64,000 bases of DNA from Dehalobacter sp. CP (GTDB taxonomy: Bacteria; Bacillota_B; Desulfitobacteriia; Desulfitobacteriales; Syntrophobotulaceae): assembly GCA_009910795.1 (NCBI GenBank), contig VMEE01000052.1, forward strand, positions 1 through 64,000, read 5' to 3'. Numbering within the stretch: position 1 is the stretch's first letter; every line of letters starts with the position of its first letter. The notes under the pieces are model-generated. The model did not search any database and was not told the DNA's origin. It saw nothing but the letters and a program-made list of their open reading frames with translations. This document shows positions 26,524 through 44,545 of this stretch, one piece after another. A program made the position numbers and the translations under genes.

Positions 26524-27297
26524 TTATTCAGCAGGTTGTCGGGCGGGAATTTTTTGGTATTTTTCCCTCGATTCTTTGTAATACCTGTTAAGTTTCCTAA
26601 GATTAACCGTCCACAGGTAAATGATATACGGTAAAAACAGCGTAAGCAGAATCGGAATTTCCGACATCAGAATAAAGTCAAAAAAACCGTGAAGCAGGAT
26701 AGGAACATATAAGGATTTTCTGAGGTAAGCTCTTTCAAGATGAGGATGATTGGAGAACTTTGCCAGGGAAAGGTAGTATCCCATCGTCACACCAAGCAGC
26801 ACGTGGGTCGGCACTGAGAATATTCCTCTGGAAAGGCCTACATACGGGTTGGCTGAAAAGTTTACAAGGACATACATGATGTTCTCGACTGTTGCGAAGC
26901 CAAGCGCGGCAAATACGGCATAGACAATTCCGTCTAGTTTTTCATCAAACGCCGGATTCCGATAGACTGTCCGCAGGACGACTGCCCTTTTGAAAAATTC
27001 TTCGGTCAGTCCCGCAACGACAAAGGCATTGAAAAAAGCTGCCGCTACCCCGGTAAAGATGTTCACGGATGTCAGAAATTTTTCAAACAGCACGATCGGG
27101 ATGACTGCCAGCGCTCCCAGGATAAAAACTTTTATAAGAAGATACAAAGGCTCTTTATCGAAACGGTCGGTATAATAGACTGCCAGGGCTAGAGCAATGA
27201 CCGGAGTAAGTGCAATTACCAATATTCGCAGATCTAATAGCAAAAAGACCACATCCTTTTTTGTAAGTTTATCTCCTGTGAAGTACATCTTCAACAT
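26524..27297 (-). CDS. prsW: PrsW-family intramembrane protease
   Basis: The 257-residue membrane protein has about eight helices and the catalytic pattern of PrsW: a glutamate pair in AGLTEEFFKRAVVL, the FATVENIMYVL segment with Glu-Asn, HVLLGVTMGY and HGFFDFIL with conserved histidines. Characterised PrsW cuts an anti-sigma factor at site 1 to release an ECF sigma factor. No anti-sigma gene lies next to it, so the substrate here is unknown. The start ATG at 27297 lacks a strong ribosome site; a start a few codons later is possible. Confidence 0.88.
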   Translation of the reverse strand: MLKMYFTGDKLTKKDVVFLLLDLRILVIALTPVIALALAVYYTDRFDKEPLYLLIKVFILGALAVIPIVLFEKFLTSVNIFTGVAAAFFNAFVVAGLTEEFFKRAVVLRTVYRNPAFDEKLDGIVYAVFAALGFATVENIMYVLVNFSANPYVGLSRGIFSVPTHVLLGVTMGYYLSLAKFSNHPHLERAYLRKSLYVPILLHGFFDFILMSEIPILLTLFLPYIIYLWTVNLRKLNRYYKESREKYQKIPARQPAE

Positions 27298-27452: not shown

Positions 27453-27527
27453 GCCGATGTGGCTCAGGGGTAGAGCAGCTCACTCGTAATGAGCAGGTCG
27501 TCGGTTCGATTCCGACCATCGGCTCCA
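27453..27527 (+). tRNA. tRNA-Thr (anticodon CGT)
   Basis: A full cloverleaf is visible. Acceptor arms GCCGATG and CATCGGC pair perfectly, the D arm is GCTC/GAGC, and the anticodon stem GCTCA/TGAGC encloses the loop CTCGTAA with anticodon CGT. The T arm GTCGG-TTCGATT-CCGAC is standard, and TCCA with an encoded CCA ends it. It reads ACG codons. Confidence 0.97.
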
Positions 27528-27538
27528 CAAGTATTAAG

Positions 27539-27570
27539 ACCTCTAGGGTTTTTCCTTGGAGGTTATTTTT
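27539..27570 (+). terminator. Terminator of tRNA-Thr
   Basis: ACCTC (27539-27543) pairs with GAGGT (27559-27563), with AGG/CCT continuing inside, followed by TATTTTT. It starts twelve bases after the tRNA. Confidence 0.7.
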
Positions 27571-28245: not shown

Positions 28246-28274
28246 TTGACAACATAAAGAATACATGATAGATT
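28246..28274 (+). promoter_or_regulatory. Sigma-A promoter of the hydrogenase-maturation operon
   Basis: A perfect -35 TTGACA (28246-28251) and TAGATT (28269-28274) are separated by 17 bases. Transcription would start near 28281, leaving a 190-base leader before the first gene. That leader is structured and contains a terminator. Confidence 0.65.
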
Positions 28275-28280
28275 TTAGTT

Positions 28281-28414
28281 TAATTAAATTGCAATGTATC
28301 TGCTCACAACTCGTTTGTCTGGAGATACAAGGCTCGTTTTTTACCCGACCGCAAGGTATATCCGAGTGGAAAGGCGCTCATCCGGCATGTGTGTTTTCTT
28401 TTTTTGCCGTTTTG
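28281..28414 (+). promoter_or_regulatory. Structured leader with alternative helices, candidate riboswitch
   Basis: Helix 1 pairs ACTCG (28309-28313) with CGAGT (28363-28367). It encloses two small hairpins: TTGT/ACAA (28315-28318 with 28327-28330) and GACC-GCAA-GGT (28347-28357, a GNRA tetraloop). A competing helix pairs GAGTG (28364-28368) with CGCTC (28375-28379), using the same bases. A terminator stem follows at 28415. Mutually exclusive helices before a terminator are the hallmark of a riboswitch or attenuator. I cannot match it by eye to a named class. A protein-binding leader is also possible. Confidence 0.5.
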
Positions 28415-28448
28415 CTCCCTTTCCGTGGCTTGCGGAAAGGGAGTTTTT
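28415..28448 (+). terminator. Attenuator-type terminator in the hyd leader
   Basis: CTCCCTTTCCG (28415-28425) pairs perfectly with CGGAAAGGGAG (28433-28443) with a seven-base loop, followed by TTTTT. It lies only 24 bases before the first gene and downstream of the operon promoter, so it must be bypassed for expression. Confidence 0.85.
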
Positions 28449-28471
28449 GATTTTTAAAGGAGGCCAAACCT

Positions 28472-28723
28472 ATGAACAAAAGAATTGGTATTATCGGCAT
28501 TGTGGTTGAAGATCTCTCTTGTGTGGAGCATATCAATGCGATTCTGCATGAATATGCCGGACTGGTCGTCGGACGGATGGGAATTCCCTACGGAGAACGG
28601 GGCGTATCAGTTATCTCGCTGATTGTCGACGGCAGTAATGATGAAATCAGCGCGCTGACCGGCAAACTGGGCAGAGTCTCCGGCGCGTCCGTTAAATCCA
28701 TGATTACAAAAAGCAATAAGTAA
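28472..28723 (+). CDS. TM1266-type iron-only hydrogenase system regulator (ACT-like)
   Basis: The 83-residue protein is a single ACT-like domain related to the regulatory half of NikR: MNKRIGIIGIVVEDLSCVEH, INAILHEYAGLVVGRMGIPY and VISLIVDGSNDEISALTGKL. The TM1266 family is named for its position beside [FeFe]-hydrogenase maturation genes, as here. It has no DNA-binding helix-turn-helix, so it may act by binding a small ligand or another protein. AAAGGAGG precedes the ATG. Its role is inferred from the genomic neighbourhood. Confidence 0.9.
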   Translation: MNKRIGIIGIVVEDLSCVEHINAILHEYAGLVVGRMGIPYGERGVSVISLIVDGSNDEISALTGKLGRVSGASVKSMITKSNK

Positions 28724-28741: not shown

Positions 28742-30193
28742 ATGAATTTTTTTGATAAATATCAAAAGGAATTCGAGGAGTACGACAAGCTTGACCATGA
28801 TTTTATTAACGACGACAAGATATGGGAACAGCTGAACAAATGGCACAACCCGTCTAGAGAAGACGTGCGTCGCGTGCTAAAAAAAGCGGAGCAGTGTGTA
28901 CGGCTCGAGCCGGAGGAAACAGCGATTCTTATCCAAAACAAGGATGAGGATACGATACAGGAGATGTATGAACTTGCCCATCAGCTGAAAGAAGAGGTTT
29001 ACGGAGACCGTATCGTGTTTTTCGCGCCGCTTTATATCAGCGATGAATGCGCGAACAACTGCAAATACTGTGGTTTCCGCTCAAGCAACACGGCGATGCA
29101 CCGCAAAACGCTCAGTATGGATGAAATCGAGCAGGAAGTGCGGATCATGATAGAAGAAGGCCAGAAACGTACTGTACTCGTTTATGGCGAATCTCCCGCA
29201 ACCGAAGTGGATTTCATGTGCGATACGATCAAAAAAGTCTACAGCGTAAAAGCACAGCACGGTGAAATCCGCCGCGCAAACATTAACTGCGCGCCGCTCA
29301 CCGTCGAAGAGCTGAAAAAACTTCAGGAAGTCGGTATCGGCACGTTCCAGGTCTTTCAGGAAACCTACCACCATGAAACTTATCATAAAATACATCCGGC
29401 CGGGACCATCAAGGGGCATTACCGCTGGAGACTTTACTGTATGGACAGGGCACAGAAGGCCGGCATCGACGATATTGGACTCGGCGTTTTGTTTGGCCTG
29501 TACGACTGGCGTTTTGAGGTCATGGCCCTTTTATACCATACCATTCATCTGGAGGAAACTTTCAACGGTGTGGGACCGCACACAATCTCATTCCCCAGAA
29601 TTACTTCGGCAACCGGTACGCCGTTTTCCGATCACCCTGAGTATGCGGTCAGCGACAGCGACTTCAAAAAACTTGTTGCCGTCTTGCGCCTGTCCGTCCC
29701 ATATACTGGCATGATTTGTACTGCACGTGAACCGGAAAAAGTGCGCAGGGAGGTAATCTCGTTTGGGGTTTCACAGATCGATGCTGGAACGCGCATTGGC
29801 GTCGGCGCTTATGCACAGTCCAAGGATGCAAACCAGCTTCCCGACAAAGAGCAGTTCTCCATCGGCGATTCGCGTGCACTGGATGATGTTATCGGCGAAA
29901 TATGCGATATGCAGTTTATCCCCTCTTTTTGCACGGCATGCTACCGTGCAGGCCGTACGGGAGAACATTTTATGAAGGTCGCAAAATCCAGGTTCGTACA
30001 TAACTACTGCATACCGAACGCCATTTTCACGCTGAAGGAATACCTGCTCGACTATGCGTCGGATGAAACAAGGGCCAAAGGCGAAAAAGTTCTCAAACAG
30101 CATGTCGAGCGGTTTAAAGGTGATCCAGCCTACGACACGATACTTGAGAATTTAAAGCGGCTGGAAAAAGGCGAACGTGATTTACGCCTGTAG
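28742..30193 (+). CDS. hydG: [FeFe]-hydrogenase maturation radical SAM enzyme HydG
   Basis: HydG splits tyrosine to make the CO and cyanide ligands of the H-cluster, releasing p-cresol. The 483-residue protein has the radical SAM motif CANNCKYC (CX3CX2C), the ThiH-like barrel and, near the C-terminus, the second-cluster cysteines starting in SFCTACYRAGRTGEHFM, which define HydG and set it apart from ThiH. It follows the TM1266 gene by 18 bases and is nine bases before hydE. No [FeFe]-hydrogenase structural gene is in the window. Confidence 0.95.
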   Translation: MNFFDKYQKEFEEYDKLDHDFINDDKIWEQLNKWHNPSREDVRRVLKKAEQCVRLEPEETAILIQNKDEDTIQEMYELAHQLKEEVYGDRIVFFAPLYISDECANNCKYCGFRSSNTAMHRKTLSMDEIEQEVRIMIEEGQKRTVLVYGESPATEVDFMCDTIKKVYSVKAQHGEIRRANINCAPLTVEELKKLQEVGIGTFQVFQETYHHETYHKIHPAGTIKGHYRWRLYCMDRAQKAGIDDIGLGVLFGLYDWRFEVMALLYHTIHLEETFNGVGPHTISFPRITSATGTPFSDHPEYAVSDSDFKKLVAVLRLSVPYTGMICTAREPEKVRREVISFGVSQIDAGTRIGVGAYAQSKDANQLPDKEQFSIGDSRALDDVIGEICDMQFIPSFCTACYRAGRTGEHFMKVAKSRFVHNYCIPNAIFTLKEYLLDYASDETRAKGEKVLKQHVERFKGDPAYDTILENLKRLEKGERDLRL

Positions 30194-30202
30194 GAGAAGT
30201 CT

Positions 30203-31291
30203 ATGGATTTAAGTCTAAAAGACCCGGAAGGGTTCTCAAAATGGATGAATTCAGCAGTAAAAAAGGAACTTTCCGATATTATCCGGTATTTTTTTGAGGA
30301 AGCAACGGCAGAAGAATGGTCGGTGATGTCCTCTTATGCAAATGAGCTGCGGGAAAAATATTATGGCAAAAAGGTTTACTTTAGGGGGCTGATTGAGTTT
30401 TCCAGCTTTTGCAGGAACGATTGTTTCTACTGCGGACTTTGCAGAAGCAACCGAAGTGCCAAAAGGTACCGTTTGACGCCGGAGGAAATTTTTGATTGCT
30501 GCCGGACGGGCTATGATCTGGGTTTTCGCACCTTTGTGCTGCAAAGCGGCGAAGATAAGTATTTTACAGACGCGCGGCTGTGTCACACCATATCAGGGAT
30601 CAAGGAGTTTTTTCCGGATTGTGCGGTGACCCTTTCAATGGGAGAGCGAAGTTTCGCTTCCTATAAATACCTATTCGATGCCGGGGCTGACCGGTACCTT
30701 CTGCGTCACGAAACGGCCGATGAGGCCCATTACGTCAAACTACATCCGTCGGAACTCAGCTTAAAAAATCGCAAACAGTGCCTATATCATCTAAAGGAAA
30801 TCGGCTATCAGGTCGGAGCCGGCTTTATGGTGGATTCTCCTTTCCAGACCTTCGATACACTGGCGGAGGATTTTCTGTTTCTGAGAGAACTGAAACCCCA
30901 AATGATCGGCATCGGTCCGTTTATTCCGCAAAAGGATACAAGGTTCCGGGGTTATTGCACGCCGTCCTCCAGTCGGACATTGGCCCTGCTGTCCCTTATC
31001 CGGATCATGCTGCCGAAAACCCTTCTGCCTGCTACTACAGCGCTCGGCACCATCGACCCCCTGGGGCGTGAAAAAGGACTAAAGGCCGGTGCCAATGTCG
31101 TCATGCCCAATCTTTCCCCGGTTAAGTACCGCAGGGATTATGCTTTATATGATAATAAAATCTGTACCGACGAAGAGGCGGCCGAATGCCTTTCCTGTCT
31201 TGCACGGCGTATTACGTCGGTCGGTTATATACCTGATTTTTCACGCGGGGACTATATAGACTTTTTAGGGAAGGATTCATCATGCGGATAG
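30203..31291 (+). CDS. hydE: [FeFe]-hydrogenase maturation radical SAM enzyme HydE
   Basis: HydE is thought to act on the HydG iron-CO-CN-cysteine product to build the diiron precursor. The 362-residue protein shows the radical SAM motif CRNDCFYCGLC in an FSSFCRN context, then VLQSGEDKYFTDARL and the LRHETADEAHYVKLHP segment typical of HydE. Related PylB and BioB are less likely given the neighbours. It overlaps the following aspA gene by ten bases. Confidence 0.93.
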   Translation: MDLSLKDPEGFSKWMNSAVKKELSDIIRYFFEEATAEEWSVMSSYANELREKYYGKKVYFRGLIEFSSFCRNDCFYCGLCRSNRSAKRYRLTPEEIFDCCRTGYDLGFRTFVLQSGEDKYFTDARLCHTISGIKEFFPDCAVTLSMGERSFASYKYLFDAGADRYLLRHETADEAHYVKLHPSELSLKNRKQCLYHLKEIGYQVGAGFMVDSPFQTFDTLAEDFLFLRELKPQMIGIGPFIPQKDTRFRGYCTPSSSRTLALLSLIRIMLPKTLLPATTALGTIDPLGREKGLKAGANVVMPNLSPVKYRRDYALYDNKICTDEEAAECLSCLARRITSVGYIPDFSRGDYIDFLGKDSSCG

Positions 31292-32697
31292 AACAAGACA
31301 TGCTGGGTGAGATGCAAATCAGTGACGGCGCGTATTATGGAATTCACACGGCGCGCGCGATGCAGAACTTCAAAATTACGGGCGTGCCGATTCACGCCGC
31401 GCTGGTTGACGCACTGGTATGCGTCAAAAAGGCCGCGGCAATTACAAACCGCGACATCGGCGCTTTGGACGGAAATATTGCGGGCGCGATCATAGCGGCA
31501 TGTGACGAAATCCTTTCGGGTGCACTGATGGATCATTTTGTTGTTGACTGCATGCAGGGCGGAGCGGGCACCTCCGCAAATATGAATGCAAACGAAGTGA
31601 TCGCGAACCGTGCCATCGAACTGCTTGGCGGACGCAAGGGCGACTATACCCTTGTTCATCCACTGGATCATGTAAACTTTCATCAATCGACAAACGACGT
31701 GTTTCCAACCGCAGTGCGCATCGCTGCTATTCGCCTGCTTATGCCTGTTACGGAGCAGTTTGCCGCGCTGCAAACCGCGCTTCAGGATAAGGAAGAGGAA
31801 TTCTCCGATATCTTAAAGGTAGGCCGAACGCAGCTTCGGGACGCAGTTCCCGTCACGCTCGGTCAGGAATTCGGAGCGTGGGCACAGGCCGTTTCACGCG
31901 ATCGCTGGCGGCTTTATAAGGCGGAGGAACGGCTCCGGCAGGTCAATATCGGAGGAACTGCCGTGGGAACCGGAATAAACGCCTCCAAAGCTTATATTTT
32001 CGCAATGATCGAACGTCTGCGGGAGCTCACGGGAATCGGCTTGGCACGGGCTGAATACATGATGGACCCTACGCAAAACTGTGACGTATTTGTCGAGGTT
32101 TCCGGCCTTTTGAAAGCGGCGGCGGTCAGCCTTACAAAAATTGCGAATGACTTACGGCTTTTGTCCTCGGGTCCGTGCGCGGGAATCGGCGAAATTGTTT
32201 TACCCGCCATACAGGCCGGCTCCTCGATCATGCCGGGCAAAGTCAATCCAGTGATGTGTGAAGCCGTAAATCAGGCAGCTTTTCAAATCATGGCGGACGA
32301 TATGGCGGTAACTCTGGCGGCACAGGCGGGGCAGCTTGAATTGAACGCCTTTTTGCCCCTGATTGCAAAAAACCTATTTGACATGCTTGATCTGCTTGGG
32401 TCTGTTCTTCCCCTCTTCATCGGCCGTTGCATCAGAGGAATTCAGGCTAACAGGGAAAGCTGCCTGCAAAAACTGAACGATAGCTTTACCCTGGTAACGG
32501 CTTTGAGCGGATACATCGGGTATGACAAAGCGTCCGAAGTTGCTGCCCTGTGTCGAAAAACAGGCAAATCGGTAGGGGAAATCGTGCTGGAACAACACCT
32601 GATGGACAAACAGATGCTGAATGAAATTTTAAAACCAGAACGGCTTACGTCACCCGGAGCCGCAATGGAAAAGGAGAAAGGGCAATGGAAAATATGA
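31282..32697 (+). CDS. aspA: Aspartate ammonia-lyase in the hyd maturation operon
   Basis: The 471-residue enzyme should convert aspartate to fumarate and ammonia. It has the superfamily signature GSSIMPGKVNPVMCE with the catalytic serine loop, HQSTNDVFPTA and the DPTQNCDVFVE segment typical of aspartases and close fumarases. It overlaps both hydE (10 bases) and hydF (13 bases), so it is part of the maturation operon. This arrangement recurs in Clostridia. Ammonia release may feed the bridging amine of the H-cluster; that link is an inference. Another small amino acid as substrate cannot be excluded. Confidence 0.88.
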   Translation: MRIEQDMLGEMQISDGAYYGIHTARAMQNFKITGVPIHAALVDALVCVKKAAAITNRDIGALDGNIAGAIIAACDEILSGALMDHFVVDCMQGGAGTSANMNANEVIANRAIELLGGRKGDYTLVHPLDHVNFHQSTNDVFPTAVRIAAIRLLMPVTEQFAALQTALQDKEEEFSDILKVGRTQLRDAVPVTLGQEFGAWAQAVSRDRWRLYKAEERLRQVNIGGTAVGTGINASKAYIFAMIERLRELTGIGLARAEYMMDPTQNCDVFVEVSGLLKAAAVSLTKIANDLRLLSSGPCAGIGEIVLPAIQAGSSIMPGKVNPVMCEAVNQAAFQIMADDMAVTLAAQAGQLELNAFLPLIAKNLFDMLDLLGSVLPLFIGRCIRGIQANRESCLQKLNDSFTLVTALSGYIGYDKASEVAALCRKTGKSVGEIVLEQHLMDKQMLNEILKPERLTSPGAAMEKEKGQWKI

Positions 32698-33932
32698 ACG
32701 CAACACCTATGGCAAGCCGGTTTGCTATAGGGCTTTTCGGAAAGAGGAATGCCGGGAAATCCTCTCTTATCAACGCTATCACCGGGCAGGACATTGCGAT
32801 TACTTCCGATGTGCCGGGGACGACGACGGATCCCGTTTATAAGGCTATGGAGCTTTTGCCGATCGGGCCGGTCGTATTGATTGATACCGCAGGACTCGAT
32901 GACGTGGACGGACTTGGAGCGCTACGTGTTGAGAAAACCTATGAAGTTTTGCGGAAATGTAACCTCGCAATTGTTGTCGCTGATGTACAGTTAGGCATCT
33001 CGGAGTTTGAGGTAGAATTTATAGAACAACTCAAACGACGAAAGATTCTGGCCGTTTGCGTACTGAATAAATGCAACAAAGGAGTGCCTGACGCAGGCGA
33101 GCTTGAGAAGCTGAAAGAGCTTGCCGGGATCCCGCTGATATGCGCAAGCACAATAAACGGATTTGGGATTGATGAAATAAAAAAGCAAATCGTTGCAAAT
33201 TCTGGACTTGAGGATGCGGAACCGGCGTTGGTCAGCGATTTGATCCACGCGGGCGACATTGCCGTACTAGTGACACCCATCGACAAGTCGGCTCCCAAAG
33301 GTAGGCTGATACTTCCTCAGCAGCAGATGATCCGCGATATCATCGAAAGCGATGCGATGGTGATCGTAACAAAAGAGCACGAGCTCAAGCTGACGCTCGA
33401 ACGTTTAAAGACGCCCCCCGCCATCGTGATTACGGATTCACAGGCCTTTCTTAAAGTGTCCGCGGACACCCCTCCCGGGATTCCCATGACATCGTTTTCA
33501 ATTCTGTTCGCACGGCAAAAGGCGGACCTCGCGGAAATGGTGCGGGGTGTCAGGCGCATTGAAAAGCTGGCCCCTGGGGACAAGGTTCTCATTGTCGAGG
33601 GTTGTACCCATCACCGTCAGTCGGACGACATCGGTAAAGTAAAAATCCCGCGCTGGATACACCAGATCGCGGGCGGAGGAATTGAATTTGAATGGGCAAG
33701 CGGCGCCTGTTTTCCAAAGGATATCTCCGGATATGCCGTGATCATCCACTGCGGCGGCTGTATGTTGAACCGCAGGGAAATGCAGTACCGCGTGCAAAAA
33801 GCGCGGGAATGTGGCACATCAATCACGAATTACGGAATATTGATTGCATACGTAATGGGCATTCTCCCAAGGGCATTAAGGCCCTTTCCCTCCGCAAGTC
33901 TGGCTTTGGAAGAAGTTGAGCCGATTAAATAA
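32685..33932 (+). CDS. hydF: [FeFe]-hydrogenase maturation GTPase HydF
   Basis: HydF is the scaffold on which the diiron subcluster is assembled and from which it is handed to the hydrogenase. The 415-residue protein has an N-terminal GTPase domain (FGKRNAGKSSLINAITGQ, DTAGLDD, LNKCN) and a C-terminal FeS domain with CTHH (CxH) followed about 50 residues later by HCGGC (CxxC), the known cluster ligands. The order TM1266-hydG-hydE-aspA-hydF with overlapping ends indicates a single unit. Confidence 0.96.
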   Translation: MENMNATPMASRFAIGLFGKRNAGKSSLINAITGQDIAITSDVPGTTTDPVYKAMELLPIGPVVLIDTAGLDDVDGLGALRVEKTYEVLRKCNLAIVVADVQLGISEFEVEFIEQLKRRKILAVCVLNKCNKGVPDAGELEKLKELAGIPLICASTINGFGIDEIKKQIVANSGLEDAEPALVSDLIHAGDIAVLVTPIDKSAPKGRLILPQQQMIRDIIESDAMVIVTKEHELKLTLERLKTPPAIVITDSQAFLKVSADTPPGIPMTSFSILFARQKADLAEMVRGVRRIEKLAPGDKVLIVEGCTHHRQSDDIGKVKIPRWIHQIAGGGIEFEWASGACFPKDISGYAVIIHCGGCMLNRREMQYRVQKARECGTSITNYGILIAYVMGILPRALRPFPSASLALEEVEPIK

Positions 33933-44287: not shown

Positions 44288-44312
44288 GCGGATTTTTCCG
44301 CACAAAAAATGT

Positions 44313-44545
44313 AGCGCCAGAGCCCATTTGGGTTGACGAGGAAGAGGTTAATCGAAGTTTTCGGCGGGTGCCTCTCGGTGGCTTGTCATCGTTAGATTCG
44401 TTGCAAATCCGGAAAGCAATTTCCGGGACAAGAGCGGATCAAACAGGAAGAAGGTTTTCTTCGCGGAATCCCTTTAGTTGTCCGTACTTTCCTACGCCCG
44501 ATTGCGAAGCAGTTGGGAAAGAAGTCACGAACAGGATTAAAAGGT
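44313..44545 (+). ncRNA. glmS ribozyme: glmS ribozyme (GlcN6P-activated self-cleaving riboswitch)
   Basis: The conserved core is plain: AGCGCCAGAGCC at the cleavage site, then GTTGACGAGGAAGAGGTTA, ATCGAAG and TCGGCGGGTGCCTC, in the order of the family. Cleavage is expected between A44313 and G44314. Glucosamine-6-phosphate acts as cofactor, and cutting exposes the downstream message to decay, so GlmS represses itself. The 3' limit is approximate; helices P3 and P4 occupy 44390-44545. It lies in the 719-base gap before glmS. Confidence 0.95.

Follow-up and report, generated by a model that had tools for sequence, protein, structure and literature searches.

Little is known about how cells match the assembly of the H-cluster to need. 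A leader that bears on this matter precedes the maturation operon in a 64,000-nucleotide stretch of DNA from Dehalobacter sp. CP, referred to below as the window. Downstream of this leader, the genes run in one direction on the forward strand, in the order TM1266-HydG-HydE-AspA-HydF. The first (28472-28723) encodes a TM1266 family protein (TIGR03959/PF21699), a candidate RNA-binding regulator, whose score of 109 bits against TIGR03959 exceeds the curated cut-off of 60.8 and places it in the family; its Shine-Dalgarno sequence, AGGAGG, was recognised by eye at 28458-28463. It is followed by HydG (28742-30193; TIGR03955, 506 bits), HydE (30203-31291; TIGR03956, 520 bits), an aspartate ammonia-lyase family protein, AspA (31282-32697; NF008909, 678 bits), and HydF (32685-33932; TIGR03918, 544 bits). 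The surroundings of the leader include a tRNA gene upstream (27453-27524, forward strand) with a terminator-like stem on its 3' side (27538-27564), and a homologue of PrsW-like intramembrane proteases on the reverse strand (26524-27297), which at 180 bits falls below the model cut-off of 225. Taken as a whole, the material presented below is best explained, with some reserve, by a cis-acting attenuator of the maturation operon for which TM1266 would be the effector, and the leader probably lets the cell lower the output of the proteins that build the [FeFe]-hydrogenase active site.

Architecture of the leader

A preliminary description of this DNA had proposed a switch-like leader in which a promoter, mutually exclusive helices, a GNRA hairpin and a terminator precede the first gene. 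The two ends of this arrangement have been recovered, namely a sigma-70-like promoter at 28246-28274, with TTGACA (28246-28251) separated by 17 nt from TAGATT and a TG before the -10 element, and a strong intrinsic terminator of 14 pairs at 28414-28449, with its stem at 28414-28444 followed by a T-run and with CCTTTCCGT contained in its 5' arm. Leaders of TM1266 genes in relatives fall into types, of which the window represents type A, and in 16 type-A loci including the window the best upstream promoter site has at least 10 of the 12 consensus letters in 10 cases and an exact TTGACA in 8. Between promoter and terminator, three hairpins follow one another. P1 (28291-28333; GC..TGTATC / GATACA..GC; alignment columns 3-12 with 38-47) occurs in type-A leaders only. 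The core hairpin (28345-28373), a putative anti-antiterminator recognised by sequence comparison, reads CCGA-CCGC-aaggtatatccga-GTGG-AAAG, and its 3' strand, GTGGAAAGG (28366-28374), is complementary to the 5' arm of the terminator and would act as the antiterminator strand. P3 (28375-28393; CGCTCAT / ATGTGTG) has one mismatch in the window, and an alternative pairing of CGGCA (28383-28387) with TGCCG (28405-28409) is possible in its region.

When folded as a single sequence, the whole leader of the window is more stable than all of 200 shuffles (z -3.15), whereas the leader without its terminator is matched by 40 of 200 (z -0.76). This indicates that single-sequence folding says little and that comparative evidence is what counts. 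In an alignment of 17 type-A rows, 93.3% of the cells of the drawn structure are paired, compared to 89.7% in shuffled alignments and at most 60% in slid versions, and 8 pairs carry changes on both sides compared to 4.1 in shuffles, a count reached by 3 of 500. P1 is paired in 95.6% of cells, with both-sided changes in three pairs, and P3 in 88.8%; the structure that RNAalifold itself derives for the 5' part misses P1 and was rejected. The number of pair types did not rise above that of shuffles, being equalled in 146 of 500 for the 17 rows and in 234 of 500 for the 31-row hairpin alignment considered below.

The helices drawn in the preliminary description have fared differently from its promoter and terminator. 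All of its short words occur at the places given (ACTCG at 28309-28313, CGAGT at 28363-28367, GAGTG at 28364-28368, CGCTC at 28375-28379 and CC-GCAA-GG at 28349-28356), and the pairings assigned to them are not convincingly borne out by relatives. For ACTCG/CGAGT, 49.3% of cells can form the helix, as many as after a slide of -2 columns; a weak signal is left over, with 4 both-sided-change pairs (reached by 13 of 500 shuffles) and a covariation score that 22 of 500 shuffles attain, which was not judged enough since the slid version pairs as often. GAGTG/CGCTC shows no both-sided change and is paired in 68.2% of cells compared to 68.8% when shuffled, and the GNRA hairpin does not stand out as a conserved unit (88.7% versus 88.2%). 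Mutually exclusive helices do appear in another form, in which the core hairpin competes with the pairing of its own 3' strand to the terminator 5' arm, so that the notion of a switch-like leader is retained as a conserved attenuator before the maturation operon and its helices have been redrawn. This anatomy, together with its competing pairings, can be put forward with high confidence from comparison of the sequences.

The core hairpin and the genes it precedes

The core hairpin follows the layout C-Y-R-A, four letters, R-A-R-G, a loop, Y-Y-R-A, four complementary letters and R-A-A-G. Both strands thus read YYRA-N4-RARG, giving a helix with a dyad in which R-A lies opposite R-A on either side of four Watson-Crick pairs, the pairs being bracketed by tandem purine mismatches. 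Stem letters vary widely, with CCGC/GCGG, UUGC/GCAA, CUGC/GCAG, UUAC/GUAA, CGCC/GGCG, GUCA/UGAC and CACG/CGUG among those seen. A descriptor of the hairpin matches 49 of 101 non-redundant TM1266 leaders, compared to a mean of 2.9 and a maximum of 9 in 100 rounds of shuffling; the set was obtained from 108 leaders by removal of near-duplicates or too-short ones, with L031, L033 and L035 left out as repeat contigs of L005, L008 and L006. Four of the 101 leaders (L021, L023, L028 and L029) contain tandem hairpins. Applied to the reversed sequence of all loci then in the set, as a control, the descriptor matches 8 times per 2.75 Mb. A looser version is deceived by a tandem 21-nt repeat (CCTAAGCGTAGAGGATGACTC) at L039 6360-6440.

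Since the descriptor itself demands pairing, the search was repeated with the unpaired letters alone. This returned 60 matches in 54 of the 101 leaders, and all four pairs are present in 48 of the 60. When pairing was not assumed, 21 of 30 distinct stem pairs proved fully complementary, compared to a mean of 3.2 and a maximum of 9 for shuffled partners. In the 31-row hairpin alignment, 97.7% of core cells are paired (87.4% when shuffled) and covariation is 0.465 (0.249 when shuffled), with a count of both-sided-change pairs that is equalled by 33 of 500 shuffles. Free folding of the 40-nt core by standard energy rules does not choose the core hairpin; this fits a hairpin that needs the help of a binder, and a wrong model would give the same result. 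The remaining 52 of 101 leaders lack the descriptor hairpin (47 of 101 by unpaired letters alone). Some of these TM1266 genes are, by eye, plainly not first in their operon, which explains part of the absences and not all.

The distribution of the hairpin follows the maturation genes. In 1.53 Mb of fetched DNA, read on both strands and holding some stretches more than once, 87 distinct strict hairpins were found, each counted once, and 82 of them lie within 500 nt before maturation genes: 71 before TM1266, 8 before HydG, 2 before HydF and 1 before HydE. The 5 located elsewhere look like background, and three-pair variants before AspA (L145) and at the start of HydF (L332) fall outside the 87. 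Because the fetched DNA is enriched for maturation genes, 391 whole genomes were also searched with the letters-only pattern, which matched in 90 genomes and gave 103 rows, those marked '?' having never been fetched and being counted as no hyd or unfetched. Four stem pairs are present in 22 rows, 16 of which precede TM1266 (11), HydG (4) or HydE (1), and a maturation gene follows 9 of the 19 rows with three pairs and 5 of the 62 with two or fewer (Fisher p 1.5e-8 for four pairs versus two or fewer); the rows of G556, G440, G528 and G474 were placed beside TM1266 by coordinates, not by reading the DNA. Rows that do not pair are to be expected, given that the reversed pattern, used as a control, also matches in some genomes. 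Among 30 HydA loci, whose flanks may miss some HydA starts, the hairpin is found in three only, where TM1266 follows. In L120, one operon carries hairpins both before TM1266 (1522-1551) and before HydG (1978-2008); the first has its own terminator, and a terminator-like stem is seen by eye 3' of the second as well.

Alignment of leaders from relatives and a covariance model had been suggested in the preliminary description, and both disclose a conserved leader. TM1266 is present in 38 of 61 related genomes and in 124 of the 196 genomes sampled from one class; for the species collection, the best 80 of 175 TM1266 loci were kept. Type A is characterised by GCAAUGUAUC...GAUACAGGGC, ACCYGACCGCAAGGU..YCCGAGCGGRAAGGCGCGCAU...AUGUGUG and then a CUCCCUUUCCG terminator, and has been found under the record titles Peptococcaceae, Desulfotomaculum, Caproicibacter, Sinanaerobacter and Lutispora as well as in Hydrogenedentes-labelled MAGs, with a divergent core in MAGs labelled Spirochaetes and Holophagaceae. 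Leaders outside type A keep the hairpin alone. The covariance model, R1, matches once per genome in 10 of the 82 genomes searched in the class. Of the 26 genomes that supplied the fetched loci, 20 have matches, and the two adjacent ones in G406 are apparently pieces of one element. In another class, it matches once in each of 8 of 391 genomes; seven matches precede TM1266 and the eighth (G718, L145) precedes AspA. A phylum-wide sample, for which few candidates were scored per genome, yielded matches in 3 of 329 genomes, all three already known. No exact match to one strict pattern was found on viral contigs, and no pattern match on plasmids.

Other leader forms have been encountered before TM1266. 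A further type, CUGACACCGAGGGUUCG(C/U)CCCGAGG.., occurs in L334, L335 and L336; in L334 and L335 its stem can pair only if shifted by one letter, which is why the strict descriptor misses it. Leaders in L061, L062, L066 and L100 look related by eye; their apical part is longer and different, and their ends are GGAAAGACGGU-like. In L119 (1143-1423, reverse strand) TM1266 breaks off after 29 residues and runs directly into HydF sequence, apparently not in frame; this deletion or assembly error places the leader before HydF.

The leader, for which the preliminary description had found no known class, matches no family of Rfam 15 at gathering cut-offs; the matches of the window lie elsewhere and comprise the tRNA and a glmS ribozyme (44302-44450, forward strand, 104.7 bits). 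Leaders of relatives, of three types (8 loci and 14 loci), likewise match no Rfam family at the gathering cut-off. The best score on the leader, 25.8 bits compared to a cut-off of 65, belongs to the PyrG leader (RF02371), the paired part of the match being the terminator, whose stem has similar letters; in contrast to that class, the unpaired 5' part aligns inside the leader (from 28374 on) and not at the transcript start. PyrR RNA (RF00515) reaches 19.3 bits compared to a cut-off of 54. The molybdenum/tungsten cofactor riboswitch (RF01055) has no match on the leader of the window or on those in the 8 and 14 loci; it shares short words such as GCGGAAAGG with the leader but differs in architecture. 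In L050 (6122-6238; Desulfotomaculum copahuensis), an RF01055 riboswitch lies downstream of the TM1266 gene at a distance of about 2 kb. The T-box (RF00230) has no match on the leader of the window, and the same scan finds one elsewhere in L098. Among the titles and beginnings of abstracts listed in literature searches, none reports an RNA leader of hyd maturation genes or an RNA-binding TM1266. The terms 'hydrogenase' and 'TM1266' are absent from a motif-discovery paper (PMC11109978) and from two others (PMC8632094; PMC6429828); the supplementary motif lists of all three may hold an unnamed entry. The RNA switch is conserved, and apparently undescribed, in bacteria filed under several phyla.

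Competing pairing and the direction of control

The relationship between hairpin and terminator was compared in 45 cases, hairpins without a downstream terminator scoring 16 and repeated pairs having been left out. In 32 of the 45, the 3' strand of the hairpin is the best 16-nt window of the upstream leader against the terminator 5' arm (top 5% in 34), which suggests that the hairpin works as an anti-antiterminator; in the other 13, another window matches the arm equally well or better. Strands paired with their own arms average -11.6 kcal/mol compared to -8.9 for cross pairs, and the own pair is better than the mean cross pair in 34 of 45 (Wilcoxon p 9e-5). Against letter-shuffled terminator arms, the 0.05 level is reached in just 22 of 45, and complementarity is slight in L077 (-3.4 kcal/mol), L106 (-3.8) and L057 (-4.7). 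In the window, the energies are -13.0 kcal/mol for the strand/arm duplex (from row L001, which has the same hairpin and terminator), -8.6 for the bare core hairpin and -22.7 for the terminator.

The direction of control is suggested by a second arrangement. In seven copies, the hairpin ends 8-14 nt before the start codon and its purine strand occupies the place of the Shine-Dalgarno sequence; these copies precede HydG (L325, L326, L327, L331 and L211), HydF (L332) and TM1266 (L103). In these copies, closure of the hairpin would mask the ribosome site, and considered together with the terminator copies this makes it likely that the closed hairpin is the OFF state in both. In the proposed mechanism, a core hairpin that holds (28345-28373) would allow the terminator (28414-28449) to form, and transcription would stop before TM1266. 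If the hairpin opened, its 3' strand GUGGAAAGG would pair with the terminator 5' arm CCUUUCCGU and RNA polymerase would continue. TM1266, possibly loaded with a metal or an H-cluster-related ligand, would stabilise the hairpin as a dimer bound to the dyad-symmetric helix, in which both strands carry YYRA-N4-RARG, and the maturation pathway would in this way repress itself through PyrR-like autoregulation.

In operons controlled by PyrR, the regulator is encoded first and extra intercistronic sites occur. The RAT hairpin of the Bgl/Sac (LicT) antiterminator proteins is short, with two similar internal loops that suit a two-fold symmetric protein, and resembles the core hairpin in this; it differs in that RAT overlaps the terminator and its binding leads to antitermination, whereas the core hairpin opposes an antiterminator. 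The closest systems are the PyrR mechanism of the Bacillus pyr operon, where an anti-antiterminator hairpin gives the OFF state when stabilised, and the Bgl/Sac (LicT) antiterminator protein family (PMC4347634). The arrangement of PyrR type, with an anti-antiterminator hairpin set against an antiterminator before a terminator, is found here by sequence comparison, and the likeness extends to a small regulator (a candidate in this case) in the first gene and to extra copies in some operons. The RNA sequence and the protein family are different, some hairpin copies overlap the Shine-Dalgarno sequence, and binding by TM1266 is a prediction. What is new would be the RNA motif, its likely partner and the two output modes, while attenuation governed by a protein or ligand is a known way of working.

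TM1266 as candidate effector and the alternatives

TM1266 is filed as a 'putative regulator' and is the sole gene of the operon so filed rather than as an enzyme or GTPase. Its secondary structure follows the order beta-alpha-beta-beta-alpha-beta (mean pLDDT 95), six positions are basic in 92-100% of 109 sequences, and one sequence relative, 2nzc, is found among solved structures. Among NCBIfam models it otherwise matches just the NF002169 nickel regulator, in its C-terminal part and at 19.6 bits with a cut-off of 111. NikR consists of a sensing half and a DNA-binding half, and the match makes TM1266 look like the sensing half without the DNA-binding half. A helix that has dyad symmetry and variable stem letters, and that stays tied to the maturation genes even when these lie apart, is more in keeping with a protein, most likely TM1266, than with a small-molecule pocket; TM1266 is encoded on another contig in G718, where the hairpin precedes AspA, in G430 (HydF) and in G491 (HydE).

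Genomes that lack TM1266 offer a comparison. Of the 72 genomes of the class without a TM1266 match, of which 20 were listed and the rest identified by gaps in the genome numbering, 70 were taken, with HydG in 25 and HydF in 25, and the hairpin was detected in 1 of their 54 loci (29 HydG, 25 HydF). Among the 30 best-scoring TM1266 loci, 11 carry it (Fisher p 3e-5), a comparison that sets TM1266 loci against HydG/HydF loci, and so not like with like, and in which loci of one genome are not independent. Per genome, a narrower pattern is found at maturation genes in 17 of 124 genomes with TM1266, counted by hand, compared to 0 of 25 lacking TM1266 and having HydG (p 0.08). The one exception, L244, is a convincing HydG hairpin in a draft genome without a TM1266 match (G438), on a contig that ends inside HydF; it looks genuine and counts against TM1266 as effector. 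The co-occurrence of hairpin and TM1266 may also reflect just an operon that travels as a unit. Binding of the hairpin by TM1266 as effector is an even proposition.

Should no protein be involved, the core hairpin, with P1 and P3 in type A, would be a riboswitch, in line with the ligand-sensing RNA of the preliminary description, and would bind a metal or a small molecule such as SAM, tyrosine, iron or an H-cluster precursor. The switch architecture without an Rfam match, the conserved purine mismatches, which could form a ligand site, the tandem copies and L244 agree with such a reading, which is nevertheless rather unlikely, considering that in a motif of about 30 nt the letters of the stem vary freely and neither a junction nor a pocket is conserved, that all of the strict hairpins except the background-like few precede maturation genes, and that the hairpin is nearly absent from the HydG/HydF loci of genomes lacking TM1266. 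Less probable still is binding by another RNA-binding protein or a general factor, for which L244 and the roughly half of TM1266 leaders without a hairpin speak; against it, the hairpin accompanies TM1266 and the partner genes across records that bear the labels of several phyla, and no other gene of the operon is filed as a regulator.

A constitutive leader without a switch, either a partial, unregulated terminator or a DNA operator (for example for Rex) with conserved letters, is very improbable: hydG of Clostridium thermocellum is listed with a Rex DAP-seq peak (PMC8457756), but compensatory stem changes and complementarity to the terminator arm act at the RNA level, and the conserved flanks are direct and not inverted repeats, unlike a symmetric operator. 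Attenuation by ribosome stalling on a leader peptide can practically be dismissed, as the reading frame that starts at ATG 28294 loses its start codon in 4 of 17 rows, where a G-C pair is replaced by A-U (columns 8 and 42), and, by eye, shifts frame with differing loop lengths.

Under the reading with TM1266 as effector, a wider proposal may be advanced, to which slightly less than an even chance is given. The YYRA-N4-RARG dyad hairpin would define a new class of RNA operator in several phyla, with TM1266 as its reader, a NikR-C/ACT-like protein that lacks a DNA-binding domain and would sense the state of H-cluster assembly and shut off HydE, HydF, HydG, AspA and itself, through attenuation in some genomes and through hiding of the Shine-Dalgarno sequence in others. 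If this is true, the TM1266 family would gain a function and an RNA target, one more protein family would join the short list of RNA-binding bacterial attenuator proteins, and the leader would provide a reporter for H-cluster biosynthesis, useful for work on biological hydrogen.
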